Of a stretch of 64,000 nucleotides of DNA, positions 10,081 through 64,000 are shown one piece after another. Made by a program: the position numbers and the translations under genes. This stretch comes from Sympetrum striolatum (lineage: Eukaryota; Arthropoda; Insecta; Odonata; Libellulidae). The stretch lies in NCBI GenBank assembly GCA_947579665.1, contig CANPUZ010000032.1, positions 806,001 to 870,000 on the forward strand. Direction: 5' to 3'. The notes under the pieces were generated by a model that saw nothing but the letters and a program-made list of their open reading frames with translations, ran no database searches and was not told the origin of the DNA. The first letter of the stretch is position 1. The number at the start of each line of letters is the position of its first letter.

Positions 10081-10190
10081 CGAGTGAACATTAACTCAAA
10101 TCAATTACAAGTCGAGGAGCCACATCTCACAGCGCGGGAGCGCCTACCGGCCCGGAGGGGATTGATGGTAACCCCATCCATCATCCCATC

Positions 10191-19083: not shown

Positions 19084-19129
19084 GTATAAAGCTATTGATA
19101 AGCATTAACTTGAATATGTGTATAGCTAG

Positions 19130-23045: not shown

Positions 23046-23111
23046 TTTTTTAAATTAATATCGTTATAATAACATTCTTTCAGATTGTGATGTTTAAAAA
23101 TTGTGAGGAGG

Positions 23112-25788: not shown

Positions 25789-28323
25789 AACATGGCGGAT
25801 TTATCGAAAATAACGGTAATTCTATCGAATATCACTTATCAAAAGAAAGTCATAATATGGGCCCTGTCGTTACTGTTCTGATAATTTCATCATCTGTTAA
25901 AGCTTCGTTTCGAGCCAAACTGTCGTCAGCCTCAGCAGCCCACCGGAGAGCTTCAGGGTTAAATATTGCGTTCGAATTTTGTAACTGATTAATGAGTGGC
26001 GCAAGCTGAATTTCTTCTGTTTGCACATTTTCTAAAACTTCCGAGCCAATAAAATTTGGGAGTAAATTTTTCCACGACTTGCTGATCAATAATTTAGACA
26101 CGGATGCCCAGCAGTTAGCAAGATTTAACACGACATCTTTTAAATTTACCTTTTTCAGTGCATTTTACAAATTTTCATTGTTCACAGGATCGTTAAGAAT
26201 ATTTGTAAAAAGCAGCTTACGATATCCTAACTTAATGCTTTGAATAACATTCTGATCCATGGGTTGGACCAGCGCAGTCGTGTTAGGGGGTAAAAACATT
26301 GCGGAAATTTCACCGTCATCAGTGCACAATTCTTCTGCAGAAGGATGGCCAGGACAATTATCAAGCAACAATAAAGCACGTTGTGATAAATTGTCGGATT
26401 ACATATGTTGTCGAACTGCTGGAACGAACTCTTTTTTAAACCAATCCAAAAAGAATTCTCGTGTGACCCAAGCGTTTTTTTGCCCTCGATAGCACACAGG
26501 TAGCGTGACTGACTTGAATGCTTTTGTGGCTGTTCCGACAACAAACAGAGGAAGCTTATGTTTGCCAGTCACACTTACACACGGCGTAAATTTAATCCTC
26601 GCTTTAATTACTTTCTCATTGATTACACGCAGTAACTTAAAATTGTTTAGCCCTTCTCGCTTATAAACACCAACTCTATAGCCCATGTATGGTCATCCTC
26701 ATTGGACGTCTATCGAAGGGAAGGATTGTTTTTTACGCCTCTTCTCTCATAGCTTTTTAATGAACATGATGTTTTGAGAAGTGAAACCCTGCTGCAACTG
26801 AAAATTTATTTTCTTTCGAAATTGTTTAGTCTTGCTCATATTAAGCATTTCTCCAATGGAAAAATGCTGTCTAAGAAAAGTTCCACAACTTAGATGTGTT
26901 ATCACAATAAACGAAATACTTCGCTCTCCATCACATCATTGCAGCCAATGGAGACATTTTTCAAATAGTCTGTCCACCTCTCGCTTCTTGTTACTAATAT
27001 GCGTGTTTATATGTTCAAAAGAAGAAGTTGCGGGTTTGCATAACTCCCAATGGACCGTCCGGATTACCGAGGGTTCCGGATTAGCGAGTGTCCGGATTAC
27101 CGGGGTTCTACTGTACTTGTCTTACTGATTTTGGTTTTTCTGATGTGATTATTGCTGAGTATCTTTCACTTACTAGAATTTGTATGTACCAGAATTGCCT
27201 CCAGTTTAATAACAAATATTATACACAAACTTTTGGTACAGCTATGGGAAATCCCCTTTCTCCCTTCTTTGCTAATATTTTTATGAACCATTTTGAAAAT
27301 TTATGTAAACAAACCTTTGACTACTTTCCTAATGTTTGGTTAAGATACGTGGATGATGTTTTTGCTGTTTTTGACACCTCTATTATGGGCATAGATTCTT
27401 TCCTATCAAAACTGAATAGCTTGTTCCCTTCAATCAAATTTACATTTGAAGTTGAACAGAACAATTGTTTACCCTTCCTTGATGTAATGGTCTCTAGAGT
27501 CTCTAACCGCCTACATTTCGATTTTTATCGAAAGCCTACTTCGTCAAATAATTTTATTCCTAATTCCTCGTTCCATCCTTTAGCCCACAGACACGCAGCT
27601 TTTCATCATTTTGTTCACAGACTTATAAACCTACCTTTAGATATCACTAGTTATAATAAAGAATTAAATTTCATTAAAAATACTGCAGACATGCTAGGTT
27701 ACGATTCTTCATTAATTAATACTTTAGTTAGGAGACATCAATTTAAAAAATTGATTGGTCAATGCTCTACTCTTTCTCAAACTCCTGATACTTTACGTTC
27801 AAAATTTATTAAAATACCGCATTTCCCATCATTAACTAAAGGTCTCCTCACAATTTTTAAACATCACAATCTTAAAGTATGTTATTATAACGATATTAAT
27901 TTAAAGAATTTGCTAGGTTCAACTAAGGACAAGACTGAACTGCTTCATAATTCTGGCATTTACTGTATATCCTGCCCAGATTGCGATCTAAAGTATATCG
28001 GCCAAACAAAAAGAAGAAGTATTATTAGGTTCAAAGAACACATAGCCCACTTCAGATCTGGGAGATTTTCTAATTCGGCTGTTGCAAAACATATGTTTGA
28101 CTTTGCACACAACATTAACGCAGATAATCTGAGCCTTGTTCACATTGCTAATTCAGGTTTAGACGCTTGGGAGAATTTATTTATCTATAAAATCGGGAAC
28201 ACCTCATGAATTTTGATACTGATTTCAACAGATCCTTGTTCAGCCTCGTTGATCTCGCTTAGCGACTTCTTTTGTCTTTTCTCCTTCTGCTCGCTGTTTC
28301 CAGTTAATTTCAGTCTCGATTTT

Positions 28324-32974: not shown

Positions 32975-33062
32975 TGCTGAGCTATCCTCCCGGATAGTCA
33001 TGTGGACACCGCGTTTGCCTTTGGAGAAAGCGGTCCTGGGCTCGATTCCCGGTGGGAGCCAA
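32975..33062 (+). repeat. tRNA-like SINE head or tRNA pseudogene
   Basis: Contains a T-arm-like cctggGCTCGATTCCcgg with a near-B box (ggctcgattcc, 33039-33049) ending ggtgggagcc, and an upstream atagtcatgtggacacc A-box-like stretch about 50 nt before. The acceptor stem does not pair with the 5' side, so not a functional tRNA. No SINE body like that at 1671 follows. Confidence 0.45.
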
Positions 33063-42975: not shown

Positions 42976-42997
42976 GGAGTCCTGGGAACGAACCCGG

Positions 42998-43305
42998 GCC
43001 GGGTCCGATGAGTTGTCGAACTCTTAAGTTGTCGGGTGAGAGGGGTTGTCGAATTCTTGAATATTCAGGTCGGATGAGTCTTCAATCTCTGAGTTGTCGG
43101 GTCATATGAGTTGTCGAACCCTGAGTTTTCGCACCCTTAGCTGTCGGGTACGATGAATTGTCGAACACTTACGTTTTCGGGTGAGAGGGGTTTTCGAACT
43201 CTTGAATATTCAGGTCGGATGAGTTTTTCACCTCTAAGTTGTCGGGTCGTATAAGTTGTTAAATTGTTGTACCCTTAGTTGTCGGGTCATATGAGTTTAT
43301 TTATT
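42998..43305 (+). repeat. GAGTTGTCG minirepeat block
   Basis: Many variants of gagttgtcgggtc(g/a)(t/g)atgag and gagttgtcgaac(t/c)c. A longer unit, gtcgggtgagaggggttgtc through ttgaatattcaggtcggatg, recurs after about 135 bp. A last copy lies at 43826-43850, directly before the satellite array. Confidence 0.85.
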
Positions 43306-43857: not shown

Positions 43858-44676
43858 TACGAGTGAAATGTTGCTTGCATGCTTCAAGCATATCGAAAAA
43901 CACTAATTTAGTGTCGGCATCACATCGAGAGGGTCCTCAAAACAAAAAAACGTTATGTGTAAATATTCTTAAAATTCGTTGCATCTCATCCGAGCGGCAT
44001 CGAACCAAGGTCTTCCTGGTGATACTTTCTGTGCAGCAAAATAGAAGATCACTTTCTCTAACCATGTGTGAAAATTCAAATTGAAATATTTGCTGCAACT
44101 GCCTCAAACGACGTCCTACTTTTCCTTTATATTCCTTATGAGAGAAATTTTATTGTAGTCTGGCTTCGAACCCAGGAACAGTATGGTGGTATTTAAATTT
44201 GTTTCTTAAACTGAGTTTTAATATACATCTTCTAGCTATGAGCGAACTTCCTATGATTTCGAAAAGTGCATCAAAAAAAATAATGAAAAACTACCTCAAT
44301 GTATTTCAAAGGGAAGAATTTTGCATCTTCCTAGCATTGAACCCAGGATATTTTCCGTGTAAGTTATTATTGTTTTCATTAGATATTTACCATTTAAATA
44401 GGCTCCATGAGTTTTGATTCTCTACCTATTGGGGAAGTATTTATTTTTAAATTCCCGAAAATTAAAGCAATGCTTTTAAATGGGAAAAATCGGGATTTTG
44501 AGTCCCTCTGGAATCGAACCCATGACACTGAGGTTCAAAATCACAATTTTTCTGGCGGTTGTACGTTATGGCCAATACGTGGTAAAAATTTCGAGACAAT
44601 GACGCCAGTAGTTTAGCCTGTGAATTAGTATCCTATATATCTATATCCATGGATCAATCCAGAGAAGCATATATAT
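43858..44676 (+). repeat. satellite unit 2 (four boxes)
   Basis: First array unit, with a diverged hairpin end (gcttgcatgcttcaagc). Four boxes, near 43999, 44166, 44336 and 44514; same composition as isolated unit 1. The spacer module is mutated (catggatcaatccagagaag). Confidence 0.85.
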
Positions 44677-45808
44677 ATAACGAGTAAAATGTAGCTTGCA
44701 TACTGCAAGCAGATCGACAACACTAATTTCATAACGGCATTATATCGGGACGGTCCCGGAAAGGAAAAAAAGGATTGAAAATATGCTTAAAATTCGCTTC
44801 AATTTAATCGTCTGGCATCGAACCCGGGTTTTTTTGGTGATATTACTATGCAGCACATCAGAAGATCATCTTCTCTAAATACGTGTGAAAATTCAAGCAG
44901 AAATATTGGCTGCAACTGCCTCAAACGAAGACCTACTTTTCACGAATGTTAATAGCTCTCTGGATTCGAACCAAGGACGATCTAGGAAATATAAAATATG
45001 TTTTCGAAATTTATCTATATTTTCTATATATATACAGAATATCAAGTTTTACTATTATTGGGAAGGGGTTCCAAATAATTCTTAAAAATCGGATCAGTGA
45101 CTGATTGTAGAGACGCCTGGTGTCGAACCCTGGACGTATTGGAAGCTGTAAATGCACGAAATAACTTGCTAGGACCTGATCTAATTTCATAGAAAGTTTG
45201 AAGTCGATATCATGCCGGGAAGTACCTAAAATGTGTTTCCGTTATCCCCGTAAGAAATGCATTGTGGAGTGCAAATGGCCCTATGGGATCGAACCAAGGA
45301 CCATAAGCGAATACAAAAAATTGATTATGAAACATATTTATGGTTTCTAACCCCATGCCAAATTTCAAGTTTCCATGCATTCGGAAAAGGGTCCAAAAAA
45401 ATGTTAAAAATCGCCACAATGCATTTTAAACGGCCGATTTTTGCCTCGACCTAGCATCGAACCCAGGATATTTTCCGTAAAACTCATTTATGTTTTCGAT
45501 ATTTCATAACCATATATATATGCTCCTTGAGTTTTGATTCTCTACCTACCCAGAAAGTATTTTTTTTTTAATTCCTGAAAATCAAAGCAATGCATTTAAA
45601 CGGGAAAAATCGGGACTTTGGGGCCCTCTGGAATCGAACCCATGACACTGAGGTTCAAAATCGCAATTTTTCTGGAGGTTATACGCTATGGCCAATATGT
45701 CGTAAAAATTTGAAGCCATTGGCGCTAGTGGTTTAGCCTGTGACTTTGTATCCTCTCTATATATATATCTAAAATATATAGATGCTTCTCCGGATTCATT
45801 CATATATC
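44677..45808 (+). repeat. satellite unit 3
   Basis: Six boxes (near 44819, 44968, 45123, 45291, 45460, 45634). Ends with the spacer module at 45776-45805. Confidence 0.9.
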
Positions 45809-46938
45809 ATACGAGTAAAATGTAGCTTGCATACTGCAAGCAGATCGGCAATACTAATTTCATATCGGCATCATATCGGGACGGTTCTCAATTGAACAAA
45901 AAAAAATATTCAAAATATTCTTAAAATTCGCTGTTATTTTATCGTCTGGCATCGAACCCGGGTCTTACTGGTAAACTTACTATGTAGCGCAATAGAAGAT
46001 CAACATCTCTAACTATGTGTGAAAATTCAATCAGAAATATTTGTTACTACTGCCTCAAAAGACGTTCTTATTTTCACGAATGTAAATCCCTCTCTGGATT
46101 CGAACCAAGGACGATCCTGGAAATCTAAAACATGATTTTGAAATTTATCTATGATATCTAACTACATGCCGAATTTCAAGTTTCTATATTGTTGGGAAAG
46201 GGTACAAAATTATTATTGAAAATCGGATCAGTTACTGATTGTAGAGACGCCTGGTTTCGAACCCAGGACACACTGGTAGCTGTGACTGCACAGTTAGATT
46301 TTTATGAACTTGATCATATTTTATGCAAAGTTTGAAGTCAATATCATGCCGAGAAGTACCTAAAATCTGTTTCCGTTATCTCCATAAGAAATGCATTGTG
46401 GAGTACAAATGGCCCTCTGGGATCGAACCAAGGACCATAAGCGAATAAAAAAAATTTGATTATAAAATATATTTATGATTTCTAACCCCATGCCAAATTT
46501 CAAGTTTCCATGCATTCGGAAAGGGGTCCAAGAAAAATCTTAAAAATCGCCACAATACATTTTAAACGGCCGATTTTTGCCTCGACCTAGTATCGAACCC
46601 AGGATATTTTCCGTAAAACTCATTTATGTTTTTGATAGATCATGACCATATATAAAGGCTCCTAGAGTTTCTATTCTCTACCTATCCGGGAAGTATTTTT
46701 TAAAAATTCCTGAAAATCAAAGCAATGTATTTAAACGGGAAAAATCGGGACTTTGGGTCCCTCTGGAATCGAACCCATGACACTGAGGTTCAAAATCGCT
46801 ATTTTTCTGGCGGTTACACTCTATGGCGAATATGTCCTAAAAATTTCAAGTCAATGACGCTTGTGGTTTGGCCTGTGAGTTTGTATCCTCTCTATATATC
46901 TATTATATATAGATGCTTCTCCGGATTCATTCATATAT
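45809..46938 (+). repeat. satellite unit 4 (reference spacing)
   Basis: Reverse B boxes start at 45952, 46100, 46258, 46423, 46593 and 46769: spacings 148, 158, 165, 170 and 176 bp. The next box, in unit 5, is 324 bp on, about two monomers. Confidence 0.92.
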
Positions 46939-48130
46939 CATACGAGTAAAATGTAGCTTGCATACTGCAAGCAGATCGGCATACTAATTTCATATCGGCA
47001 TCATTTTGGGACGGTCCTCAAAAGAAAAAAAAAAGCGGATTGAAAATATTCTTAAAATTCGCTGCAATTTCATCGTCTGGTAACGAACCCGGGTCATACT
47101 GGTGAAATTACTATGCAGCACTATCGAAGATCACCATCTCTGACTTAGTGTGAAAATTCAAGCAGAAATGTTGCCTACAACTCCCTCAAAAGACGTTCTA
47201 CTTTTCCCTTATATTCCTTATGAGAGAAATGTTAATGTGCTCTGGCATCGAACCCAGGAATAGTAAGGTCTTATGAAATTTTTTTTCTTAAAGCAATTCT
47301 TACCATACATCTTCTATCCTATTACGAACTTCGTAACATTTCGATAAGTGCATCAAAAAAATAATGAAATATTAACCCAATGTATTTTAAACGGGAGACA
47401 TATTTACCGCCCGGCATCGAACCTGGGTCTTTCTATTAATACTTCCTATGCAACATAATAGAGGATCACCATCTTTAACTATGTGTGAAAATTCAAGCAA
47501 AAATATTGGCTGCAACTGCCTCAAACAACGTCTGACTTTTCCCTAATATTCTTTATGAGAGAAAAGTTACTGTGCTCTGGCATCGAACCCAGGTATAGTA
47601 CGGTCTTATGAAATTTTTTTTCTTAAACAAATTCATAACATATATCATCTATCTGAGCGAGAAAATCCTTACATTCCGATAAGTGCATCAAAAAAATTAA
47701 TGAAAATCTATCCCCATGCATTTTAAATGTGGGATTTTTGCATCGTCCTAGCATCGAACCCAGTACGTTCTCATTAGAAGTCATTAACGTTTTCAATAGT
47801 TCTCGACCATGTCTGTAAGCTCGCTGAATTTGGATTCTCTAACTATCCGGGAAGTATTATTTAAAAATTTTTGAAAATCGCCACCATGTATCCTTATGGA
47901 GAAAATAGGGACTTTGGGTCCTTCTGGAATCGAACCCATGACACCGAGGTTCAATGTCGGCTTTTTCCTGGAGGTTACTCGTTATGGCCAATATGTCGTA
48001 AAAATTTCAAGGCATTGGCACTTGTGGAACATGGTTAGAATTTTGATCCCCTATATATAACTTATGTATATATATATAGGTAAATCCGGAGAAGCGTCTA
48101 TATATAATAGATATTCATATATATATATAT
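46939..48130 (+). repeat. satellite unit 5 (alternative box order)
   Basis: Longest unit (about 1190 bp). Boxes near 47093, 47250, 47418, 47583, 47755, 47930; the central modules (atcgaacccaggaatagta and cgcccggcatcgaacctggg) alternate and replace boxes c-e, as in units 9 and 11. Confidence 0.88.
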
Positions 48131-49235
48131 ATATACGAGTAAAATGTAGCTTGCATACTGCAAGCAGATCGACAAAACTAATTTTATATTGGCATCATAT
48201 CGGGACGGTCCTCAAAAGAAAAAAAAAAGAATTGAAAATATTCTTAATATTTGCTGCAATTTCATCGTCTGGCATCGAACCCGTGTCTTACTGGTGAACT
48301 TACTATGCAGCACAATAGAATATCACCATCTCTAACTATGTGTGAAAATTCAACCAAAAATATTGGCTACAACTGCCTCAAACTACATTCTACTTTTCAA
48401 TAATGTAAATGGCTCACTGGTTTGAACCAAGGACGATCTAGGAAATTTAAAACATGTTTTTGAAATCTATCTATGTTCTCTATCTATATACCTAATTTCA
48501 TGTTTTAACATTATTGGGAAAGGGGTTTAATTTAATTCTTAAAAATCGCCTAATTTACTGATTGTAGAGACGCCTGGTGTCGAAAGCAGGAAATATTGGT
48601 AGCTGTGATTGCACAGTATGACTTATTACGACTTCATCTTATTTCATACAAAGTTTGAAGTCGATATCATGCCGGGAAGTACCTAAAACCTTTATCTGTA
48701 ATCTCCATAAGAAATGCATTGACGAATGTAAATGGCTCTCTGGGATCGAACCAAGGACCGACAACGAATATGTAAAATTTGATTATCAAATAAATCTATG
48801 ATATCCAACCCCATGCAGAATTTCAAGTTTCCATGCATTCGGAAAGGGGTCCAAAAAAAATCTTAAAAATCGCCACAATGCATTTTAAACGGCCGAATTT
48901 TGCCCCGACCTAGCATCGAACCATGGATATTTTTCGTAAAACTCATTTATGTTTTCGATAGATCATGACCATATATAAAGGCTCCTTAAGTTTCGATTCT
49001 CTAACTATACGGGAAGTATTTTTTAAAAATTCCCGAAAATCAAAGCAATACATTTAAACGGGAAAAATCGGGACTTTGGGGCCCTCTGGAATCGAACCCA
49101 TGACTCTGAGGATCAAAGTCGCTTTTTTCCTGGGAGTTTCATGTTATGGTCAATATGTCATAAAAATTTCAGATCAATGACGCTTGTAGTTTAGGCTGTG
49201 AATTAGTTCCCTATCTATCTATCTATCTATATAGG
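48131..49235 (+). repeat. satellite unit 6
   Basis: Six subunits; the second (gtttgaaccaagg, near 48421) and third (gtcgaaagcagg, near 48580) have decayed boxes. Ends in a (TATC)n spacer at 49203-49230. Confidence 0.88.
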
Positions 49236-50260
49236 TATACGAGTAAAATGTAGCTTGCATACTGCAAGCAGATCGGCAATACTAATTTCATATCGGCATC
49301 ATATCGGAACGCTCCTCAAAAGAAAAAAAAAGGATTGAAATTTTTCTTAAAATTCGCTTAAATTTCATTGTCTGGCATCGAACCCGGGTCTTACTGGTGA
49401 ACTAACTATGCAGCACAATAGGAGATCATCATCTCTAACCATGTGTGAAAATTCAAGCAGAAATATTGGCTACAACTGCCTCAAAAGACGTTCTAATTAT
49501 CACGAATGTAAATGGCTCTCTGGATTCGAACCAAGGACGATCCTGGAAATCTAAAAGATATTTCTGAAAGTTATTTATGATTTCTATCTATATGCAGAAT
49601 TTCAAATTTCTATATTATTGGGAATGGTTTCCAAATAATTCCTAAAAATCGGATCAATTTCTGATTGCAGAGAGATACCTGGTGTCGAAGCCAGGACATA
49701 TTGTAAGCTGTGCATGCAAAGTTTGATTTGTAAAGACTTTTTCTTGTATCTTGCAAAGTTTGAAGTCGATAGCATGCCGGGAAGTACCTTAATTTTGTTT
49801 CCGTTATCTCCGTAAGGAATGCATGGAGAAGTGCAAATGGTCCTCTGGGATCGAACCAAGGACCATCAGCGAACATGAAAAATTTGATTACGAAATATAT
49901 TTATGATATCTATCGACGTGCCGAGTTTCAAGTATCCATGTTATCGGGAAAGGAACCAAAAAAATTTTTCAAAAGTCCCTAGAGTTTCAACTCTCTGCTT
50001 TTCCGGGAAGTGCCTCAAAAAAATTTTCGAAAATCCCCGCCATGTAATCTTATGGGGAAAATCGCGACTTTGGGCCCCTCTGGAATCGAACCCATGACAC
50101 TGAGGTTCAAAATTGCAATTTTTCTGGAGGTTATACGTTATGGCCAATATGTCGTAAAAATTTCAAGCCATTGACGCTAGTGGTTTAGCCTGTGACTTTG
50201 TATCCTCTCTATATATCTATTATATATAGATGCTTCTCCGGATTCATTCATGTATCTATT
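49236..50260 (+). repeat. satellite unit 7 (one subunit deleted)
   Basis: Only five boxes and about 1025 bp: the subunit with the agcatcgaacccagg box is missing, joined at about 49970-49985 (cccaaaaaaatttttcaaaa-like seam to cctagagtttcaactctctg). Confidence 0.88.
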
Positions 50261-51425
50261 ATATACGAGTAATATGTAGCTTGCATACTGCAAGCAGATG
50301 GGCAATACTAATTTCATATCGGCATCATATCGGGACGGTACTCAAAAGAAAAAAAAAAAGGATTTAATTTTTTCTTAAAATTCGCTGAAATTTCATCGTC
50401 TGGCATCGAACCCGGGTCTTCCTGGTAAACCTATTATGAAACACAATAGAAGATCACCATCTCTAATTATGTGTGAAAATTCAAGCAGAAATATTGGCTA
50501 TAACTGCCTCAAAAAACGTTCAAATTTTTATGAATGTTAATGCCTCTCGGGACTCGAACCAAGGACGATCGTGGACATCTAAAACATGTTTCTGAAAGTT
50601 ATTTATGATTTCTATCTACTTGCCGAATTTCAAGTTTCTATTTTATTGGGAAAGGTTTCAAAATAATTCCTAAATATCGGATCAACTTCTAATTGCAGAG
50701 ACACCTGGTGTCGAACCTAGGACATATTGTAAGCTGTAAATGCACAGTTTGGTTTGTAAAGACCTGTTCCTCTATCACGCAATGTTTGAAGTCGATAGCA
50801 TGCCGGGAAGTACCTTAATTTTGTTTCCGTTATCTCCGTAAGAAATTCATTGAGAAGTGCAAATAGCCCCCTGGGATCGAACCAAGGACCATCAGCGAAC
50901 ATTTAAAGTTCGATTATGTAATATATTTATGATATCTATCCACGTGCCGAGTTTCACGTATCCACGTTATCGGGAAAGAGTCAAAAAGAAATCTTCAAAA
51001 TCGCCGCAATGCATTTTAAACGGCCGATTTTTGCCCCAACGTAGCATCGAACCATGGACCATATTTGGCGATGTCTTTTTTATTTTCGTTGGATATGCAC
51101 GGCTTCCAGCGATCCCTCGAATTTCAACTCTCTCCTTTTCCGGGAAGTGCCTCAAAAAAATTTTCAAAAATCCCTGCCATGTAATCTTATGGGGAAAATC
51201 GCGACTTTGGGGCCTTCTGGAATCGAACCCATGACACCGAGGTTCAAAGTCGGCTTTTTCCTGGAGGTTAAACGTCATGGCCATAACGTCGTAAAAATTT
51301 CAAGTCAATGACGCTTTTGGTTTAGCCTGTGAATTTGTATCCTATCTGGGTATCTGGGTATCTGGGTATCTGGGTATCTGGGTATATATATGAATGAATC
51401 CGGAGAAGCATCTATATCTATTAAT
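50261..51425 (+). repeat. satellite unit 8
   Basis: Six boxes (50406, 50554, 50712, 50876, 51046, 51222). Its last ~560 bp (50857-51420) reappear inverted at 52660-53250. Ends in five copies of the 8-mer tatctggg at 51340-51385. Confidence 0.9.
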
Positions 51426-52591
51426 ATATACGAGTAAAATGTAGCTTGCATACTGCAAGCAGATCGACAACACTAATTTCATGTCGGCATCATATCGGGA
51501 AGGCCGTCAAAAGAAGGAAAAATGGATTGAAAATATTCTGATTATTCGCTGCAATTTATTCGTCCGGCATCGAACACGGGTCTTCCTAGTGATACTTACT
51601 ATGCAGCACAATAGAAGATCACCATCTCTAACTATCTGTGAAAATTCAAGCAGAAATATTATCTGCAACCTCCTCAAACGACGTCCTACTTTTCCTTTAT
51701 ATTTCTTATGAGAGAAATGTTAATGTGCTCTGGCATCGAACCCAGGAATAATTCGGTCTTCAGAAAACTGTTTTCTTAAACCAGTTTTAACCATACATTT
51801 TCCAGCCAAGCACGAACTTCCTATCATTTCAATAAGTGCATCAAAAAAATAATGAAATACTAACCCTATGTATTTTAAACGGGAGACATATTTACCGCCC
51901 AGCATCGAACCCGGGTCTTTCTGGTAAAACTTCCTATGCAACATAATAGAAGATATTAATCTTTAACTTTTTGCGAAAATTCAAGCAGATGTATTGGCTG
52001 CAACTGCCTCAATCAAAGTCTTATTTTCCCTTATATTCCTTATGAGAGTAATGTTAATGTGCTCTGGCATCGAACCCAGGAATAGTACGGTCTTATGAAA
52101 ATTTTTTTCTTAAACCAATTCTTACCTTACACTTTCCGGCTAAGCACGAACTTCCTATTATTTCGAGAAGTGCATCAAAAAAAATAATGAAAAACAGCTC
52201 CCATGTATTTTAAAGGGCAGATCTTTGCATCGTCCTAGCATCGAACCCAGGATATTTTTTGTAAAAGTCATTGATGTTTTCGAAAGACCAAGACCATAAC
52301 TATAGGAACCTTGAGTTTTATTTCTCTACCTATCCGGAAAGTATTTTTTAAAAATTCCCGAAAATCACGGCAATGCATTTAAACGGGAAAAATCGGGACT
52401 TTGGGGCCCTCTGGAATCGAACCTATGAGACTGAGGATCAAAGTCGCTTTTTTCCTGGGGGTTTCACGTTATGGCCAATACGTCATAAAAATTTCAAGGC
52501 AATGACGCTTGTAGTTTAGCCTGTGAATTTGTATCCTATCTATATAGCTATATAGCTATATAGCTATATGGCTATATAGCTATATGGCTAT
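51426..52591 (+). repeat. satellite unit 9 (alternative box order)
   Basis: Boxes near 51568, 51735, 51905, 52070, 52240, 52418, very evenly spaced (165-178 bp). Ends in seven copies of an 8-mer, tatatagc/tatatggc (52541-52590). Last plus unit before the orientation switch. Confidence 0.9.
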
Positions 52592-52662
52592 ATATATGAA
52601 TGAATCCGGAGAAGCATCTATATCTATTATATATAGATGCTTCTCCGGATTCATTCATATAT
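52592..52662. repeat. perfect 31-bp palindromic junction
   Basis: Arms 52592-52622 and 52632-52662 are exact inverses, each containing the spacer module; 9-nt loop. Units to the left read plus and to the right minus, so the junction is head-to-head. Confidence 0.95.
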
Positions 52663-53776
52663 ATACCCAGATACCCAGATACCCAGATACCCAGATAGGA
52701 TACAAATTCACAGGCTAAACCAAAAGCGTCATTGACTTGAAATTTTTACGACGTTATGGCCATGACGTGTAACCTCCAGGAAAAAGCCGACTTTGAACCT
52801 CGGTGTCATGGGTTCGATTCCAGAAGGCCCCAAAGTCGCGATTTTCTCCATAAGGATACATGGTGTAGATTTTCGAAAATTTTTTTGAGGCATTTCCCGG
52901 AAAAGGAGAGAGTTGAAATTCGAGGGATCGCTAGAAGCCGTGCATATCCAACGAAAATAAAAAAGACATCGCCGAATATGGTCCATGGTTCGATGCTAGG
53001 TCGGGGCAAAAATCTGCCGTTTAAAATGCACTGTGGCAATTTTTAAGATTTATTTTGGATCCTTTTCCGATGGCATAGAAACTTGAAATTTGGTATGAGG
53101 TTAGACACCATAAAAACATATCTTTATCGAATTTTACATATTCGCTGATGGTCCTTGGTTCGATCCCAGAGGGACATTTGAATTCCTCAATGCATTTCTT
53201 ACGGAGATAACGGAAACAAATTTTAGGTACTTTCCGGCACGATATCGATTTCAAACTTTGCATATAGAAAGATCAAGTCCATAAATATCAAACAGTGCAT
53301 TCACAGCTATCAATGTGTCCTGGGTTCGACACCAGGTGTCTCTGCAATCAGAAGTTGATCCGATTTTTAGGAATTATTTTGAAACCTTTCTCTATATTAT
53401 AGAAACTTGAAATTCGGCATATAGATAGAGATCATAAATATCTTTCAAAAACATTTTTTAGATTTCCAAGATCGTCCTTGGTTCGAGTCCCGAGAGCCAT
53501 TCACATTCGTAAAAATTAGAACGTCTTTTTAGGCAGTTGTAACCAATATTTCAGCTTGAATTTTCACACATAGTTAGAGATGGTGATCTTCTATTTTGTT
53601 TCATAGTAGGTTTACCAGTAAGACCCGGGTTTGATGCCAGACGATAAATTTCACCGAATTTTCAGAAAAAATTAAATCTTTTTTTTTTTCTTTTGAGGAC
53701 CGTCCCGATATAATGCCGATATGAAATTAGTGTTGTCGATCTGCTTGCAGTATGCAAGCAACATTTTACTCGTATA
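52663..53776 (-). repeat. satellite unit 10
   Basis: First reversed unit; starts with four copies of the 8-mer acccagat (52668-52697), the complement of unit 8's tatctggg. Boxes at 52810, 52988, 53157, 53323, 53480, 53626 (the last ggtttgatgcc). The first ~590 bp mirror unit 8. Confidence 0.9.
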
Positions 53777-54934
53777 ATAGATAGATGCTTCTCCGGATTC
53801 ATTCATATATATACCTATATAGATAGAAAGGATACAAATTCACAGCCTAAACTACAAGCGTCATTGATCTGAAATTTTTATGACATATTGGCCATAACGT
53901 GGAACCCCCAGGAAAAAAGAGACTTTGATCCTCAGTGTCATAGGTTCGATTCCAGAGGGCCCCAAAGTCCCGATTTTTCCCGTTTGAATGCATTGCCGTG
54001 ATTTTCGGGAATTAAAAAAAAATACTTTCCGGATAGGTAGAGAAGTAAAACTCAAGGTGCCTATATTTATGGTCTTGGACTTTCGAAAACATCAATGACT
54101 TTTACAAAAGTTATCCTGGGTTCGATGCTAGGACGATGCAAAGATCTGCCCTTTAAAATACATGGGAGCCGTTTTTCATTATTTTTTTAGATGCACTTAT
54201 CGAAATGATAGGATGTTCGTGCTTGGCTGGAAGATGTATGGTACGAATAAGTTTTAGAAAAAAATTTTCATAAGACCGTACTGTTCCTGGGTTCGAAGCC
54301 AGAGCACAATAACGTTTCTCTCATAAGGAATATAAAGGAAAAGTAGGACGTCATTTGAGGCAGTTGTAACCAATGTTTCTGCTTGAATTTGCATACGCGG
54401 TTAGAGATGGTGTTTTTCTTTTGTGCTGCATAGAAAGTATTGCCTGAAAGACCCGGGTTCGATGCCGGGCGGTAAAAATATCACCCATATATAATACTAT
54501 GGGGTATCTTTTAATAATTTTTTTATGCATTTATCGATATGTAAGGGAGCTCTTGCTTAGATGGAAGATGTATATTAACACATTGTTTAAGAAAAAAAAT
54601 AGATAAGACCATGCTGTTCCTGGGTTCGATGCCAGAGCACATTATAATTTCTCAAATAAGGAGTGTATGTGAATAGTAGGACGTCGTTTGAGGTAGTTGC
54701 ACCTAATAGTTTTGCTTAGATTTTCACACATAGTTTTAATATGGTTATCTTCTGTTTTGCTGCATAGTAAGTACACCAGGAAGACCAGGGTTCGCTGCCA
54801 GGTGATTAAATTGCAGCGAATTCTACGAATATTTTGAATTTTTTTTTCTTTTGATGTCCGTCCCGATATGATGCCGATATGAAATTAGTGTTGTCGATCT
54901 GCTTGCAGTATGCAAGCTACATTTTACTCGTATA
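53777..54934 (-). repeat. satellite unit 11 (alternative box order)
   Basis: Boxes near 53943, 54119, 54290, 54458, 54620, 54790, with the cctgggttcgatgccagagc and cccgggttcgatgccggg modules alternating. The last box is mutated (ggttcgctgcc). Confidence 0.88.
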
Positions 54935-56068
54935 ATAGATAGATGCTTCTCCGGATTCATTCATGTATATACCTAGATAGATAGATAGATAGGATACTAA
55001 TTCACAGCCTAAACCACAAGCGTCATTGACTTGAAATTTTTACGACGTATTGGCCATAACGTGTAACCGCCAGAAAAATTGCGATTTTGATCCTCAGTGT
55101 CATAGGTTCGATTCCAGAGGGCCCCAAAGTCGCGATTTTCTCCATAAGAATACATGGCGGGGATTTTCGAAAATTTTTTTGAGGCACTTCCCGGAAACGT
55201 AGACAGTTGAAATTCAAGGGATCGCTAGAAGCCGTGCATTTCCAACGTAAATCAGAAAGACATCGCCGAATATGGTCCATGGTTCGATTCTAGGTCGGGG
55301 CAAAAATCGGCCGTTTAAAATGCATTGCGGCGATTTTGAAGATTTTTTTTGGATCGTTTCCCGATAACATGGATACTTGAAACTCGGCACGTCGATAGAT
55401 ATCATGAATATATTTCATAATCAAATTTTACATGTTCGCTGATGGTCCTTGGTTCGATCCCAGAGGACCATTTGCACTTCTCAATGCATTTCTTACGGAG
55501 ATATCGGATACAAAATTTAGGTACTTCCCGACATGCTATCGACTTCAAACTTTGCAAGAAACAAGAACAAGTCTTTACAAATCAAACTTTGCATTCACAG
55601 CTTACAATAAGTCCTGGGTTCGACACCAGGTGGCTCTGCAATCAGAAGTTGATCCGATTTTTAGGAATTATTTTGAAACGTTTCCAAATAATATAGAAAT
55701 TTAAAATTCGGCATATAGATAGAGATCATAAATAACTTTCAGAAACATTTTTTAGATTTCCAAGATCGTTCTTGGTTCGAATCCAGAGAGCCATTTACAT
55801 TCGTGAAAATTAGAACGTCTTTTGAGGCAGTTGTAGCCAATATTTTTGCTTGAATTTTCACACATAGTTAGAGATGGTGATCTTCTATTGTGCTGCATAG
55901 TACGTTAACCGTAAAGACCTGGGTTCGATGCCAGACACTTATATTGAAGCGAATTCTAAGAATATTTTAAATTCTTTTTTTTTTCTTTTGAGGACCGTCC
56001 CGATATGATGCCGATATGAAATTAGTGTTGTCGATCTGCTTACAGTATGCAAGCAACATTTTACTCGT

Positions 56069-56070
<2 letters not shown>
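54935..56070 (-). repeat. satellite unit 12
   Basis: Six boxes (55104, 55280, 55450, 55618, 55774, 55920). From about 55250 onward it is nearly identical to unit 17. The hairpin has a change (gcttacagtatgcaagc). Confidence 0.9.

Positions 56071-56136
<66 letters not shown>
56071..56136. repeat. (TA)n microsatellite
   Basis: About 33 TA pairs between units 12 and 13; duplicated at 61776-61842. Confidence 0.97.
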
Positions 56137-56141
<5 letters not shown>

Positions 56142-57218
56142 GACACAAAGTCACAGGCTAAACCACTAGCGTCAATGGCTTGAAATTTTTACGACATATT
56201 GGCCATAACGTATAACCTCCAGAAAAATAGCGATTTTGAACCTCAGTGTCATGGGTTCGATTCCAGAGGGCCCCAAAATCCCGATTTTTCCCGTTTGAAT
56301 GCATTGCTTTGATTTTCGGGAATTAAAAAAAAATACTTTTCGGACAGGTAGAGAATTAAAACTCAAGGAGCCTATATATATGAACATGATCTATCGAAAA
56401 CATAAATGAGTTTTACGAAAATTATCCTGGGTTCGATGCTAGGTCGGTGCGAAAATCGGCCGTTTAAAACGCATTGTGGAGATTTTTAAGATTTTTTTTG
56501 GACCTCTTTCCGAATGCATGGAAACTTGAAATTTGGCATGGGGTTAGAAATCATAAAAATATTTCATAATTAAATTTTCTTTATTCCCTTTTGGTCCTTG
56601 GTTCGATCCCAGAGGGCCATTTGTACTCCACAATGCATTTCTTATGGAGATAACGGAAACAGATTTTAGGTACTTTTCGGCATGATATTGACTTCAAACT
56701 TTGCATAAAATATGATCAAGTTCATAAAAATCTAACTGTGCAGTCACAGCTACCAGTGTGTCCTGGGTTCGAAACCAGGCGTCTCTACAATCAGTAACTG
56801 ATCCGATTTTCAATAATAATTTTGAACCCTTTCCCAACAATATAGAAACTTGAAATTCGGCATGTAGTTAGATATCATAGATAAATTTCAAAATCATGTT
56901 TTAGATTTCCAGGATCGTCCTTGGTTCGAATCCAGAGAGGCATTTACATTCGTGAAAATAAGAACGTCTTTTGAGGCAGTTGTAACAAATATTTCTGCTT
57001 GAATTTTCACACATAGTTAGAGATGTTGATCTTATATTGTGCTGCATAGTAGGTTTACCAGTAAGACCTGGGTTCGATGACAGACGATGAAATTTCTGCG
57101 AAATTTATGAAAAATTTCAATCCTTTTTTTTTCTTTTGAGGACAGTCCCGATATGATGCCGATATGAATTTAATATTGCCGATCTGCTTGCAGTATGCAA
57201 GCTACATTTTCCTCGTAT
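56137..57218 (-). repeat. satellite unit 13
   Basis: Six boxes (56250, 56428, 56600, 56766, 56924, 57070). Nearly identical to unit 18. Followed by a variant spacer (tatccggagaaacgtct) at 57235-57252 and a tail-to-tail switch to unit 14. Confidence 0.9.
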
Positions 57219-58414
57219 ATATATATATAGGTATATCCGGAGAAACGTCTATATATAATAGATATATATATATATACGAGTAAAATGTAGCTTGCATACT
57301 GCAAGCAGATCGACAACACTAATTTCATAACGGCATTATGTCGGGACGGTCCCGGAAAGGAAAAAAAGCATTGAAAATATTCTTAAAATTCGCATCAATT
57401 TAATTTTTTGGCATCGAACCCGGGTCTTTTTGGTTAAATTTCTATGCAGCACATCAGAAGATCATCTTCTCTAAATAGGTGTGAAAATTCAAGCATAAAT
57501 ATTGGCTGCAACTGCCTCAAACGAAGACCTACTTTTCACGAATGTTAATAGCTCTCTGGATTCGAACCAAGGACGATCTAGGAAATATAAAATGTGTTTT
57601 CGAAATGTATCTATAAGTTCTATATATATGCCGAATTTCAAGTTTTAATATTATTGGGAAGGGGTTCAAAATAATTCTTAAGAATTGGATCAGCGACGGA
57701 TTGTAGAGACGCCTGGTGTCGAACCCTGGACGTATTGGAAGCTGTAAATGCACAAAATTACTTGCTAGGACTTGATCTAATTTCATACAAAGTTTGAAGT
57801 CGATATCATACCGGGAAGTACCTAAAATGTGTTTCTGTTATCCCCATAAGAAATGCATTGTGGAGTGCAAATGGCCCTCTGGGATCGAACCAAGGACCGT
57901 CAGCGAATATGTAAAATTTTATTATGAAATATATTTATGATTTCTAACCCCATGCCAAATTTCAAGTTTCCATGAATTCGGAAAGGGGTCCAAAAAAAAT
58001 CTTAAAAATCGCCACAACGCATTTTAAACGGCCGATTTTTGCCCCGACCTAGCATCGAACCCAGGATATTTTCCGTTAAACCAATTTATGTTTTCGATAG
58101 ATCATGTTCATATATATAGGCTCCTTGAGTTTTAATTCTCTACCTATACGGGAAGTATTTTTTTTTTATTCCCGAAAATCAAAGCAATGCATTTAAACGG
58201 GAAAAATCGGGACTTTGGGGCCCTCTGGAATCGAACCCATGACACTGAGGATCAAAATCGCAATTTTTCTGGTGGTTACACATTATGGCCAATACGCCGT
58301 AAAAATTTCAGCTCAATCACTCTTGTGGTTTAGGCTGTGAGTTTGTATCCTCTCTATATATATATCTATTATATATAGATGCTTCTCCGGATTCATTCAT
58401 GTATCCATATATAT
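57219..58414 (+). repeat. satellite unit 14
   Basis: Unit body starts at 57274. Boxes 57414, 57560, 57720, 57885, 58052, 58230. Very like unit 3 (shared cgggacggtcccggaaagg). Confidence 0.9.
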
Positions 58415-59560
58415 ATACGAGTAAAATGTTGCTTGCATACTGCAAGCAGAACGACAACACTATTTTCATGTCGGCATCGTATCGGGACGGCCATCAAAGA
58501 AAAAAAGGGATTGAAATTTTTCTTAAGATTCGCTGAAATTCCATCGCCTGGCATCGAACCCGGGTATTTACTGTGAACTTACTATGCAGCTTAATAGAAC
58601 ATCACCATCTCTAACTATGTGTGAAAATTCAATCAGAAATATGGGCTACAACTGCCTCAAAAGACGTTCTAATTTTCACGAATTTAAATGGCTCTCTGGA
58701 TTCGAACCAAGGACAATTTTGGAAATCTAAAAAATGTTTCTGAAAGTTATTTATGATCTCTATCTATATGCCGAATTTGAAGTTTCTATATGATTGGCAA
58801 AGGTTTCAAAATAATTCCTAAAAATCGGATCAACTTCTGATTGCAGAGACACCTGGTGTCGAACCCAGGACACATTGATATCTGTGAATACACGGTTTGA
58901 TTTGCACGGACTTGATCATTCTTTGTACAAAGTTTGAAGTCGATGTCGTGCCTGGAAATACCTAAAATGTGTTTCCGTAATCTCCATAAGAAATGCATTG
59001 AGGAATGTAAATGGCCCTCTGGGATCGAACCAAGGACCATAAGGGAATATGAAAAATTTGATTATGAAATATAATTATGATATCTAACGCCATGCCGAAT
59101 TTCAAGTTCCTATGCCATCGGAAAAGGGTCCAAAAAAAATCTTAAAAATCTCCGCAATGCATTTTAAACGGCCGATTTTTGCCTCGACCTAGCATCGAAC
59201 CCAGGATATTTTCAGTAAAACTCATTTAAGTTTTCGATAGATCATGACCATATATATCGGCTCCTTGAGTTTTAAGTCCCTACCTATCCGGCAAGTATTT
59301 TTTTTTAATTCCCGAAAATCACGGCAATGCATTCAAACGGGAAAAATCGGGACTTTGGGGCCCTCTGGAATCGAACCTATGACACTGAGGATCAAAGTCT
59401 CTTTTTTTCCTGGGGGTTTCACGTTATGGCCAATATGTCATAAAAATTTCAGATCAATGACGCCTGTAGTTTAGGCTGTGAATTTGTATCCTATCTATCT
59501 ATATAGGTATATATATGAATGAATCCGGAGAAGCATCTATATATAATAGAAGATATATAG
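58415..59560 (+). repeat. satellite unit 15
   Basis: Boxes 58555, 58700, 58858, 59023, 59190, 59370. Ends with spacer gaatgaatccggagaagcat at 59517-59540, then a head-to-head switch. Confidence 0.9.
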
Positions 59561-60641
59561 AGAGGATACAAACTCACAGCCTAAACCACAAGAGTGATTG
59601 AGCTGAAATTTTGACGACATATTGGCCATAACGTATAACCTCCAGAAAAATTTTGATTTTGATCCTCAGTGTCATGGGTTCGATTCCAGGGGGCTCCAAA
59701 GTCCCGATTTTTCCCGTTTAAATGCATTGCTTTGATTTTCGGGAATTAAAAAAAAATACTTCCCGGATAGGTAGAGAATCAAAACTCAGGGAGCCTTTAT
59801 ATATGGTCATGATCTATCGAAAACATAAATGAGTTTTACGGAAAATGACCTGGGTTCGATGCTAGGTCGATGCAAAAATCTGCCGTTTAAAATGTATTGT
59901 GGCGATTTTTAAGATTTTTTTTGGACCCTTTACCGATGGCATGGAAACTTGAAATTCGGTATCTGGTTGGATATCATGAATACATTTCATAATCAAATTT
60001 TACATATTCGCTGATGGTCCTTGGTTCGATCCCAGAGGGCCATTTGCACTTCTCAATGCATTTCTTACGGAGATAACGGTAACAAAATTAAGGTACTTCC
60101 CGGCATGCTATCGACTTCAAACTTTGCATGATAAAAAAGCCAGCCCTTACAAATCAAACTTTGCATTCTCAGATTACTATATTTCCTGGGTTCAACACCA
60201 GGTGTCTCTGCAATCAGAAATAGATCCGATATTTAGGAATTATTTTGAAACCTTTCCCAATAATATAGATATATGAAATATATATATATATATAAGTATC
60301 ATTTATAGGTTTCAGACACAAATTTTAGATTTCCAAGATCGTCCTTGGTTCGAATCCAGAGAGCCATTTACATTCGTGAAAATTAGAACGTCTTTTGAGG
60401 CAGTTGTAGCCAATATTTCTGATTGAATTTTCACACATAGTTAGAGATGGTGATCTTCTATTGTGCTACATAGTAAGTTCACCAGGAAGACCCGGGTTGG
60501 ATGCCAGACGATGAAATTTCAGCGAATTTTAAGAAAATTTACTTGCCTTTTATTTTTTTTTGAGGACCCTCCCAAAATGATGCCGATATGAAATTAATAT
60601 GCCGATCTTCTTGCAGTATGCAAGCTACATTTTACTCGTAT
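59561..60641 (-). repeat. satellite unit 16
   Basis: Boxes 59688, 59850, 60023, 60190 (ggttcaacacc), 60348, 60495 (ggttggatgcc). A TA-rich stretch at about 60280-60296 interrupts one subunit. Confidence 0.88.
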
Positions 60642-61772
60642 ATATATATGGATACATGAATGAATCCGGAGAAGCATCTATATATAATAGATATAGGGGA
60701 TCAAAATTCTAACCATGTTCCACAAGTGCCAACGACTTGAAATTTTTACGACGTTATGGCCATGACGTGTAACCTCCAGGAAAAAGCCGACATTGAACCT
60801 CGGTGTCATGGGTTCGATTCCAGAAGGCCCCAAAGTCCCGATTTTCTCCATAAGGATACATGGCGGGGATTTTCGAAAATTTTTTGACGCACTTCCCGGA
60901 AAAGTAGAGAGTTGAAATTCGAGGGATCGCTAGATGCTGTGCATTTCCAACGAAAATCAGAAAGACATCGCCGAATATGGTCCATGGTTCGATTCTAGGT
61001 CGGAGCAAAAATCGGCCGTTTAAAATGCATTGCGGCGATTTTGAAGATTTTTTTGGAACTTTTCCCGATAACATGGATACTTGAAACTCGGCACGTCGAT
61101 AGATATCATGAATATATTTCATAATCAAATTTTACATGTTCGCTGATGGTCCTTGGTTCGATCCCAGAGGACCATTTGCACTTCTCAATGCATTTCTTAC
61201 GGAGATAACGGATACAAAATTTAGGTACTTCCCGACATGCTATCGACTTCAAACTTTGCAAGAAACAAGAACAAGTCTTTACAAATCAAACTTTGCATTC
61301 ACAGCTTACAATAAGTCCTGGGTTCGACACCAGGTGGCTCTGCAATCAGAAGTTGATCCGATTTTTAGGAATTATTTTGAAACGTTTCCAAATAATATAG
61401 AAATTTAAAATTCGGCATATAGATAGAGATCATAAATAACTTTCAGAAACATTTTTTAGATTTCCAAGATCGTTCTTGGTTCGAATCCAGAGAGCCATTT
61501 ACATTCGTGAAAATTAGAACGTCTTTTGAGGCAGTTGTAGCCAATATTTTTGCTTGAATTTTCACACATAGTTAGAGATGGTGATCTTCTATTGTGCTGC
61601 ATAGTACGTTAACCGTAAAGACCTGGGTTCGATGCCAGACACTTATATTGAAGCGAATTCTAAGAATATTTTCAATTCTTTTTTTTTTCTTTTGAGGACC
61701 GTCCCGATATGATGCCGATATGAAATTAGTGTTGTCGATCTGCTTACAGTATGCAAGCAACATTTTACTCGT

Positions 61773-61775
<3 letters not shown>
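60642..61775 (-). repeat. satellite unit 17
   Basis: Boxes 60812, 60985, 61156, 61322, 61478, 61625. The head is diverged (gatcaaaattctaaccatgt). From about 60953 it is the copy of unit 12. Confidence 0.9.

Positions 61776-61842
<67 letters not shown>
61776..61842. repeat. (TA)n microsatellite
   Basis: About 32 TA pairs between units 17 and 18; homologous to 56071-56136. Confidence 0.97.
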
Positions 61843-61846
<4 letters not shown>

Positions 61847-62928
61847 GAGGACACAAAGTCACAGGCTAAACCACTAGCGTCAATGGCTTGAAATTTTTAC
61901 GACATATTGGCCATAACGTATAACCTCCAGAAAAATAGCGATTTTGAACCTCAGTGTCATGGGTTCGATTCCAGAGGGCCACAAAGTCCCGATTTTTCCC
62001 GTTTGAATGCATTGCTTTGATTTTCGGGAATTAAAAAAAAATACTTTTCGGACAGGTAGAGAATTAAAACTCAAGGAGCCTATATATATGAATATGATCT
62101 ATCGAAAACATAAATGAGTTTTACGAAAATTATCCTGGGTTCGATGCTAGGTCGTTGCGAAAATCGGCCGTTTAAAACGCATTGTGGAGATTTTTAAGAT
62201 TTTTTTTGGACCTCTTTCCGAATGCATGGAAACTTGAAATTTGGCATGGGGTTAGAAATCATAAAAATATTTCATAATTAAATTTTCTTTATTTCCTTTT
62301 GGTCCTTGGTTCGATCCCAGAGGGCCATTTGTACTCCACAATGCATTTCTTATGGAGATAACGGAAACAGATTTTAGGTACTTTTCGGCATGATATTGAC
62401 TTCAAACTTTGCATAAAATATGATCAAGTTCATAAAAATCTAACTGTGCAGTCACAGCTACCAGTGTGTCCTGGGTTCGAAACCAGGCGTCTCTACAATC
62501 AGTAACTGATCCGATTTTCAATAATAATTTTGAACCCTTTCCCAACAATATAGAAACTTGAAATTCGGCATGTAGTTAGATATCATAGATAAATTTCAAA
62601 ATCATGTTTTAGATTTCCAGGATCGTCCTTGGTTCGAATCCAGAGAGGCATTTACATTCGTGAAAATAAGAACGTCTTTTGAGGCAGTTGTAACAAATAT
62701 TTCTGCTTGAATTTTCACACATAGTTAGAGATGTTGATCTTATATTGTGCTGCATAGTAAGTTTACCAGTAAGACCTGGGTTCAATGATAGACGATGAAA
62801 TTTCTGCGAAATTTAAGAAAAATTTCAATCCTTTTTTTTTTCTTTTGAGGACAGTCCCGATATGATGCCGATATGAAATTAATATTGCCGATCTGCTTGC
62901 AGTATGCAAGCTACCTTTTCCTCGTATA
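61843..62928 (-). repeat. satellite unit 18
   Basis: Copy of unit 13; boxes 61960, 62140, 62305, 62470, 62630, with the last one decayed (ggttcaatgat, near 62780). Confidence 0.9.
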
Positions 62929-62993
62929 TATATATAGGTATATCCGGAGAAACGTCTATATATAATAGATATATATATTATAGGTATATATAT

Positions 62994-63050
62994 GAATGAA
63001 TCCGGAGAAGCATCTATCTATTAAATATAGATGCTTCTCCGGATTCATTC
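62994..63050. repeat. 24-bp palindromic spacer junction
   Basis: Arms 62994-63017 and 63027-63050 are exact inverses holding the spacer module, 9-nt loop. Here both flanking units read minus, so the palindrome is not itself a marker of orientation change. Confidence 0.93.
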
Positions 63051-63054
63051 AAGG

Positions 63055-63056
63055 AT

Positions 63057-63100
<44 letters not shown>

Positions 63101-63101
63101 G
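63055..63101. repeat. (GATA)n microsatellite
   Basis: About eleven copies of the 4-mer at the head of unit 19. Confidence 0.97.
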
Positions 63102-64000
63102 ATACTAATTCACAGCCTAAACTAGAACCGTCATCGACTTGAAATTTTTACGACGTATTGGGCATTACGTGTAACCACCAGAAAAAATGAGATTTTGAAT
63201 CTAAGTGTCATAGGTTCGATTCCAGAAGGCCCCAAAGTCGCGATTTTGTCCATAAGAATACATGGCAGGGGTTTTCGAAATTTTTTTTGAGGCACTTCCC
63301 GGAAAAGGAGAGATTTGAAATTTAAGGGATCGCTAGATGCCGTGCATATCTAAAGGAAACCATAAAGACATCTACGAATATTATCCTTGGTTCGATGCTA
63401 GGTCGGGGCAAAAATCGCCCGTTTAAAATGCATTGTGGCAATTTTTAAGATTTTTTTTGGACCCTTTTCCGATGGCATAGAAACTTGAAATTCGGTGTGA
63501 GGTTGGATACCATAAAAATATATCATAATCGAATTTTACATATTCGCTGATGGTCCTTGATTCGATCCCAGAGGGCCATTTAAATTCCTCAATGCATTTT
63601 TTACGGAGATAACAGAAACAAATTTTAGGTACTTCCCGGCGTGATATCGACTTCAAGCTTTGCATATAGAAAGATCAAGTCCATACAAATCAAACAGTGC
63701 ATTCAGAGCTATTAATTTATCCTGGGTTCGACACCAGGCGTCTCTATAATCAGCATCTGATCCTATTTTCAATAATAATTTTGAACCCTTTCCCAACAAT
63801 ATAGAAACTTGAAAATCGGCATGTAGATAGATTTCATAAATAACTTTTAGAAACATGTTTTAGATTACCAAGATCGTCCTTGGTTCGAATCCAGAGAGCC
63901 ATTTAAATTCGTGAAAATGAGAACGTCTTTTGAGGCAGTTGTAGCCAATATTTCTGCTTGAATTTTCACACATAGTTAGAGATGGCGATGTTCTATTGTG
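63102..64000 (-). repeat. satellite unit 19, cut by the window end
   Basis: Boxes 63210, 63385, 63555 (gattcgatccc), 63725, 63880; the last subunit and hairpin lie beyond the window, so the array continues. Confidence 0.88.

Follow-up and report, generated by a model that had tools for sequence, protein, structure and literature searches.

The last 20 kb of a 64,000-nucleotide (nt) window of the Sympetrum striolatum genome (Odonata, Libellulidae; assembly GCA_947579665.1, contig CANPUZ010000032.1, positions 806,001 to 870,000 of the forward strand) raise the question of why a short motif resembling the B box of RNA polymerase III (Pol III) promoters, the binding site of transcription factor IIIC (TFIIIC), recurs in repeat after repeat of a tandem array in which most of the remaining sequence has diverged. 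The array occupies positions 43858 to 64000 and consists of 18 units, u01 to u18, each of about 0.8 to 1.1 kb and resembling a mobile element, with microsatellite linkers between them. It continues past the window end, where u18 is truncated.

Number, spacing and conservation of the box

With up to two mismatches allowed, GGTTCGANNCC has 281 matches in the window, sites matching on both strands being counted twice, against an expectation of 101.9 ± 10.3, and none of 100 shuffles reaches 281. Calling one box per monomer on the strand of each block, with 11 weaker matches near better ones and the out-of-register match at 63501 left out and the degenerate in-register box at 62779 taken in, gives 104 in-register boxes, 74 of which are exact, 26 with one mismatch, three with two and one with three. 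These counts bear out the initial annotation, which was made from the sequence before the present analysis and had given about 105 motifs over 20 kb. Its figure of six boxes per unit holds for fifteen of the 18 units; u01 has four, u06 five through a deletion, and u18 five at the window end. In type I units, which have six distinct repeats, neighboring boxes are 175–177, 168–170, 166, 157–159 and 147–148 bp apart when the deleted stretch of u06 and the cut end of u18 are set aside, and so the annotated rule of one box per 150–175-bp monomer also stands, with 147–177 bp in intact units.

Fourteen type I units were aligned blind to the boxes over 1075 columns, and changes per column were counted by parsimony. 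The nine core positions of the box have 0.204 changes per column, the two N positions 0.417, the nine flanking positions 0.593 and the columns elsewhere 0.939, and so the core has changed about 4.6 times less than the rest. A value as low as that of the core came up in none of 20,000 random draws of six places. This agrees with the earlier claim that the box is far better conserved than the intervening sequence, and the equal conservation of box and flanks that had been named as the contrary outcome of a monomer alignment did not occur. The contrast between core and rest is present for each base taken separately and on both internal branches (0.037 versus 0.370 changes) and terminal branches (0.167 versus 0.592). 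It is also present when ten units are aligned by another method (9/540 differences in the core versus 1041/9533 in the rest) and in the four type II array units (5/198 versus 434/3630, p = 5e-6). The consensuses of the 12 repeats, six per unit type, have a mean pairwise identity of 0.43 outside the box region and of 1.0 at eight of the nine core positions, although several of them are counterparts of one another, 76–94% alike; within type I, repeats D and B are 70% alike and the other pairs 37–51%. The two N positions are freer than the core between these consensuses, as in a B box.

A lone type II copy elsewhere in the window (about 18252 to 19078) provides a comparison with a unit outside the array. 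Its core differs from the consensus at 5/36 positions and the rest at 122/690 (p = 0.66), and hence its boxes have decayed like its other sequence, in a comparison that comprises one copy, 36 core positions and a consensus built from the compared array units. Overall divergence is 17.7% for the lone copy and 12.0% for the four array units of type II, and the lone copy and these units also differ in the core (p = 0.009). Because the core of the lone copy has decayed unlike the array cores, a low mutation rate alone does not explain the quietness of the site.

The small size of this comparison and several further observations weigh against selection acting on the box as such. Taken singly among 11-bp windows, boxes F, D and E fall in the lowest 5% and box B in the lowest 9%, and boxes C and A only within the lowest 21%. 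Two box-less 20-bp stretches, CAAAAATCGGCCGTTTAAAA and GAATTTTCACACATAGTTAG (type I consensus columns 308 and 859), have 0.25 changes per column, a lower value than in the windows that contain boxes A, C and E. The terminal-to-internal contrast lacks significance (p = 0.22). Within the window there is good support for selection on the site, although the box is not alone in this, and it is highly probable that the box is conserved because a protein binds the site.

The repeating unit and its array

With the strand of the boxes taken as plus, a unit starts with a microsatellite and a linker module, followed by GATACAAATTCACAG or a similar sequence and about 110 bp. Four to six repeats of 148–176 bp with one box each follow, and about 130 bp close the unit with the hairpin GCTTGCAGTATGCAAGC plus ACATTTTACTCGT. 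Type I comprises 14 units, the six repeats of which are named F, E, D, C, B and A. Type II comprises four units (u01, u04, u08 and u10) in which the middle repeats alternate, with a period of 334 bp in u08 according to Tandem Repeats Finder (TRF). The array has no long coding frame, the longest stop-to-stop frame being 126 amino acids.

The lone copy, which is on the plus strand, carries four boxes and is 82% like the first array unit, lies inside the coding region of a broken piggyBac transposase (18007–20145, minus strand) whose best matches are Ladona fulva proteins with identities of 79% (over 82% of the query) and 75%. Its flanks encode adjoining parts of the transposase. The upstream piece (19138–19287) matches PF13843 near the end of that family (E = 1e-5). 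Pfam gives no significant match for the downstream piece and NCBIfam none at all, a hit to PF19061 (E = 0.013) missing the cut-off and being taken as chance, and the joined flanks have no match in the PDB. The flank readings ...LINSFILY and ...LSLYDFR... form a single stretch when aligned with the Ladona fulva relative and with the nine others shown; five or six residues are missing at the junction compared with these relatives, and the downstream flank, translated in another frame, offers similar residues. The ends at 18252 and 19078 were placed by eye from these protein readings and the Ladona fulva relative, so that some bases are uncertain. With the ends so placed, no target duplication is evident, and the empty site would be TATT/GTAT, a single site whose exact ends come from the protein reading. 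A hairpin at 19050–19066 lies about 12 nt before the end at 19078, and a matching hairpin is found in 17 of the 17 array ends inside the window. A scan confined to the two end regions of the lone copy, and to matches of 12 bp or more with at most one mismatch, detected no inverted end repeats.

Since the lone copy interrupts the piggyBac gene elsewhere in the window, the repeating unit is very probably a mobile element. What the initial annotation called a satellite is more aptly seen as an array, the members of which are complete mobile-element-like units with their own ends. The balance leans toward an element of the rolling-circle kind. Neither an autonomous partner nor further copies were found within the window, which counts on the opposite side. 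The hairpin of the element occurs in none of the viral contigs and none of the prokaryote genome contigs searched, and the extended box in none of the viral contigs, collections that are poor places for insect repeats.

The lone copy also bears on the spacing of the boxes, which had been compared with the nucleosome repeat length. The spacing is real and inter-box lengths are near-invariant, yet indels are rare in general: pairs of type I units differ by 8778 substitutions versus 277 indels. The lone copy differs by 133 substitutions and five indels from u01 and by 108 and four from u08, one of the latter indels being a 334-bp dimer; the ratios are 148:17 against u10 and 146:8 against u04, in alignments that the dimer difference disturbs. 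Because a lone, decaying copy also has few indels, the constant inter-box length gives no evidence for nucleosome phasing, and selection on spacing was rejected as its explanation.

The boxes are on the minus strand at 43.9–52.5 kb (u01–u08, 43858–52535) and 57.3–59.5 kb (u13–u14, 57276–59490) and on the plus strand at 52.7–57.2 kb (u09–u12, 52699–57216) and 59.6–64 kb (u15–u18, 59565–64000, the last unit being cut by the window end). The switches in orientation, at about 52.6, 57.25 and 59.5 kb, are located at inverted-repeat junctions. The first coincides with a palindrome of two facing linker modules (52591–52663) and the second with two facing 3' hairpin ends (57177–57315). The plus-strand segment u11–u12 (54993–57216) is near-identical to u16–u17 (60700–62925), with identities of 96% for u11/u16 and 99% for u12/u17 compared with 77–93% for the remaining type I pairs, and this likeness is the result of a recent multi-unit duplication.

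Unit u03 (45811–46887, minus strand) is an example of a type I unit with six boxes: A, GGTTCGATGCC, at 45948–45958; B, GGTTCGAATCC, at 46096–46106; C, GGTTCGAAACC, at 46253–46263; D, GGTTCGATCCC, at 46419–46429; E, GGTTCGATACT, at 46589–46599; and F, GGTTCGATTCC, at 46765–46775, all on the minus strand. Its 3' terminal hairpin (45825–45846, minus strand), with the stem GCTTGCA/TGCAAGC, is among the two least-changed 20-bp windows of the type I units. The linker module AGATGCTTCTCCGGATTCATTCA adjoining u03 lies at 46911–46933 on the plus strand. This module is found at 14 places within 44650–63051, in either orientation relative to its own unit, as if inverting between AT-rich flanks. The linker microsatellite varies from unit to unit, being (AT)n, (TATCTGGG)n or (ATAG)n, as at 56072–56136, 61776–61842, 51343–51385 and 63057–63100. 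Directly before the array, at 42980–43300, lies another short degenerate repeat field with variants of GAGTTGTCGAAC/GTCGGGT.

Other elements are present upstream of the array. A Jockey-like long interspersed element (LINE; 10095–14512, plus strand) is split over several frames, with a Ladona fulva protein as its best match (47% over 76% of the query). Penelope-like fragments lie at 22692–23054 (minus strand) and 27085–28209 (plus strand), the second with a reverse-transcriptase match, and among the best 120 of 214 relatives of the Penelope-like protein, those with names are insects. Together with the Ladona fulva matches of the piggyBac and Jockey proteins, this points to a dragonfly or another odonate as the probable host. 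A 17-bp repeat of the TCCGGATTA type occurs near 23.4, 27.1 and 34.5 kb.

Candidate binders and other explanations of the site

The positions that are quiet within repeat types read TCC, two freer positions, GGTTCGA, two freer positions and CCAG, about 18 bp, so that the 11-bp motif originally described is present as a core of a longer conserved stretch. The exact A box TRGYNNARNNG is found at –110 to –22 of none of the 104 boxes versus 3.2% of base-shuffled stretches, and with one mismatch it is not in excess either (33% of boxes versus 40% of shuffles), in a test that cannot see a strongly altered A box. No tRNA is matched in the array by Rfam covariance models up to E = 10 or by ARAGORN, and across the whole window no match to an Rfam family attains the cut-off of that family. 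T-stem pairs 1 to 5 form in 99, 101, 33, 92 (79 of them G-U) and 38 of the 104 boxes. Because there is no excess of A boxes, no tRNA match and poor pairing at T-stem pairs 3 and 5, the sites are isolated B-box-like sites, and the reading of them as relics of tRNA-derived short interspersed elements (SINEs), which the initial annotation had offered, finds no support.

Several other candidates were tried and rejected. Each of the two pairing registers of the box is broken in part of the copies, which argues against a hairpin in RNA or DNA. The CENP-B box motif is TTCGnnnnAnnCGGG, and its required A is present in only 1 of 108 boxes. The 67 Rfam matches with E values up to 10 include no hammerhead of a retrozyme or satellite. 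Matches to microRNA families in the array all lie below the gathering scores, mostly at AT-rich palindromes or microsatellites, and were taken as chance. Elsewhere in the window, tRNA-like, SINE-looking sequences with GGTTCGATTCCCGG lie near 1721 and 37036, and another with GGCTCGATTCCCGG near 33039; those near 1721 and 37036 are alike downstream of the box and unlike the array repeats.

In tRNA numbering, T55 is invariant in 108 of 108 boxes, and C62 is the least conserved core position, with C in 86 of 108. All five changes at base 57 among the 108 boxes are G to A, a change that the B box tolerates. In the human TFIIIC structure (PMC11811891; this and the papers cited below are represented by excerpts), base-specific contacts are made in box B. 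They are placed here at G53, T55, C56, G57, C61 and C62, all inside the core, by an alignment of our own through the two bases that the source equates with yeast numbering. TFIIIC recruitment is plausible and has precedents on repeats, and TFIIIC may be the binder of the site, with a likelihood that stops a little short of even.

The best explanation as a whole, a mobile unit with kept sites that are isolated B boxes bound by TFIIIC to a local benefit, is tentative and slightly less secure than the identity of the binder. The element would move by a rolling-circle-like route, as its hairpin end, the lack of inverted end repeats found and the lack of a target duplication seen may indicate. The lineages keeping their sites would be those that continued making copies. 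TFIIIC would bind the site as an isolated B box lacking an A box, in the way known from extra-TFIIIC (ETC) sites, and the array would hold about a hundred TFIIIC docking places. The benefit would be local, through open or boundary chromatin or through tethering, favoring the copying of the element or shielding it from silencing. A fuller version is possible and more doubtful, in which a rolling-circle-like family took isolated B boxes into its internal repeats, where they were selected to capture host TFIIIC, and its arrays became a TFIIIC-coated satellite. If this is true, there is about one TFIIIC site per nucleosome-length repeat, and the element spreads chromatin-boundary or nuclear-tethering sites.

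Other facts count against TFIIIC. Conservation reaches the upstream TCC and the downstream AG, beyond the B box, and the excerpt of PMC11811891 reports no base-specific contacts at the equivalents of these positions. CCTGG/CCAGG forms a partial dyad in the site. The conserved outer bases and the dyad together suggest another or an additional protein, and the G-to-A changes at base 57 could be explained by ordinary CpG decay. The identity of the binder is thus less certain than selection on the site, and a different binder is a strong rival. Such a binder might be the mobilizing protein of the element itself or another host protein, which would recognize the site in the manner of iterons or subterminal sites, the likeness to a B box being chance; this is possible but on the doubtful side. 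The length of the conserved stretch, about 18 bp and more than a B box, is consistent with it, as are the presence of the site four to six times per unit, the five outer dyad pairs, which form in 100, 63, 84, 80 and 40 of the 104 boxes with G-U counted, and the terminal hairpin, a likely transposition signal whose 0.1 changes per column equal the value of the quietest box window of the type I units. However, all nine fixed and both freer positions coincide with those of a B box, and the dyad is broken exactly at the N positions of the B box, positions 1 and 2 being conserved at 96% and 99% and their mirrors 8 and 7 at 40% and 72%.

It is improbable that the boxes are real Pol III promoters making short RNAs from the repeats. 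The B boxes are intact, at least 68 of the 104 have a run of five or more T within 60 bp downstream on the box strand, and the newt, Xenopus and frog tandem repeats in PMC10702118 are partial precedents; but A boxes are not in excess, no match to a Pol III RNA or tRNA family is credited, and T runs are common anyway in A+T-rich DNA. Slightly less probable still is that the motif is kept for promoting recombination, conversion or amplification of the repeats rather than for binding a chromatin factor. It has been proposed that motifs conserved between satellite monomers that are otherwise unlike aid amplification (PMC12628747), and inversions, junctions of inverted repeats and a recent duplication of two units are all present in the array; however, at the junctions inspected the orientation switches fall in linkers and the duplication covers whole units, and the sole repeat-sized deletion seen in type I units, that of u06, removes a box. 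That the boxes are functionless relics of tRNA-derived SINEs is very improbable, since plain relics should not remain conserved whereas constraint on the box is well above that on the rest, and the array lacks an A-box excess, a tRNA match, a good T-stem and a target duplication seen at the lone copy, although the sequences near 1721 and 37036 carry a similar box and SINE-derived satellites with box B in the unit are known (PMC10702118).

Satellites and HINE-type elements are usually viewed as fast-evolving filler, and a site of about 18 bp held across repeats that have mostly diverged almost beyond recognition turns a functional claim into a testable one. If TFIIIC binds the site, rolling-circle-like elements, the birth of satellites and TFIIIC-based genome organization would be linked. 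In the literature searched, a partial selection with few subscription papers, no description of a satellite or Helentron-like element with constrained isolated B boxes was met.

Comparison with known systems

HINE/DINE-1 elements have a microsatellite, central satellite-like repeats, a 3' palindrome, subterminal inverted repeats (subTIRs) and a TT target (PMC7492417, PMC4067079). Like Cg_HINE of the Pacific oyster and DINE-1, the present unit is non-coding, with a microsatellite, internal repeats, a 3' palindrome and dispersed copies, and its repeats of 148–176 bp compare with 140–180 bp in Cg_HINE. According to the oyster paper (PMC7492417), whole Helitron-type elements can stand in tandem, and oyster monomers that are otherwise unlike have two relatively conserved segments. 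The 3' palindrome of HINE lies 8–35 nt from the end, as does the hairpin of the lone copy. HINE has subTIRs of 11–15 bp, whereas none of at least 12 bp was found in the lone copy, and it inserts within TT; the target read here, at one site with ends taken from the protein reading, would be TATT/GTAT. Since subTIRs were not found and the target so placed would not be TT, the element is HINE-like and is not assigned to HINE. The B-box-like site in every repeat is a feature that sets the present unit apart from HINE/DINE-1.

SINE-derived satellites of squamates (PMC10702118) are tandem and some have box B, as here; they are traceable to known SINEs, whereas the array shows no likeness to tRNA beyond the box, as judged with Rfam and ARAGORN. 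In the Adamussium paper (PMC5874043), tRNAscan-SE was used to look for A and B boxes.

In yeast and human, most ETC sites contain only box B (PMC6950938). A B box, commonly without an A box, is what the array presents when judged from sequence alone. C. elegans has dense ETC clusters, with 214 of 504 sites on CeRep3 repeats (PMC6950938), and like these the array has B boxes grouped in cis on repeats and, it appears, no Pol III genes. The C. elegans sites mostly have both A and B boxes and resemble tRNA pseudogenes, whereas the array has no excess of A boxes. In S. pombe, the IR-L/IR-R elements recruit TFIIIC and not Pol III, with five B boxes in 327 bp of one boundary element (PMC4502379). Both IR-L/IR-R and the present array have several B boxes in repeated DNA, and in the array these amount to about a hundred in 20 kb, as known from the sequence.

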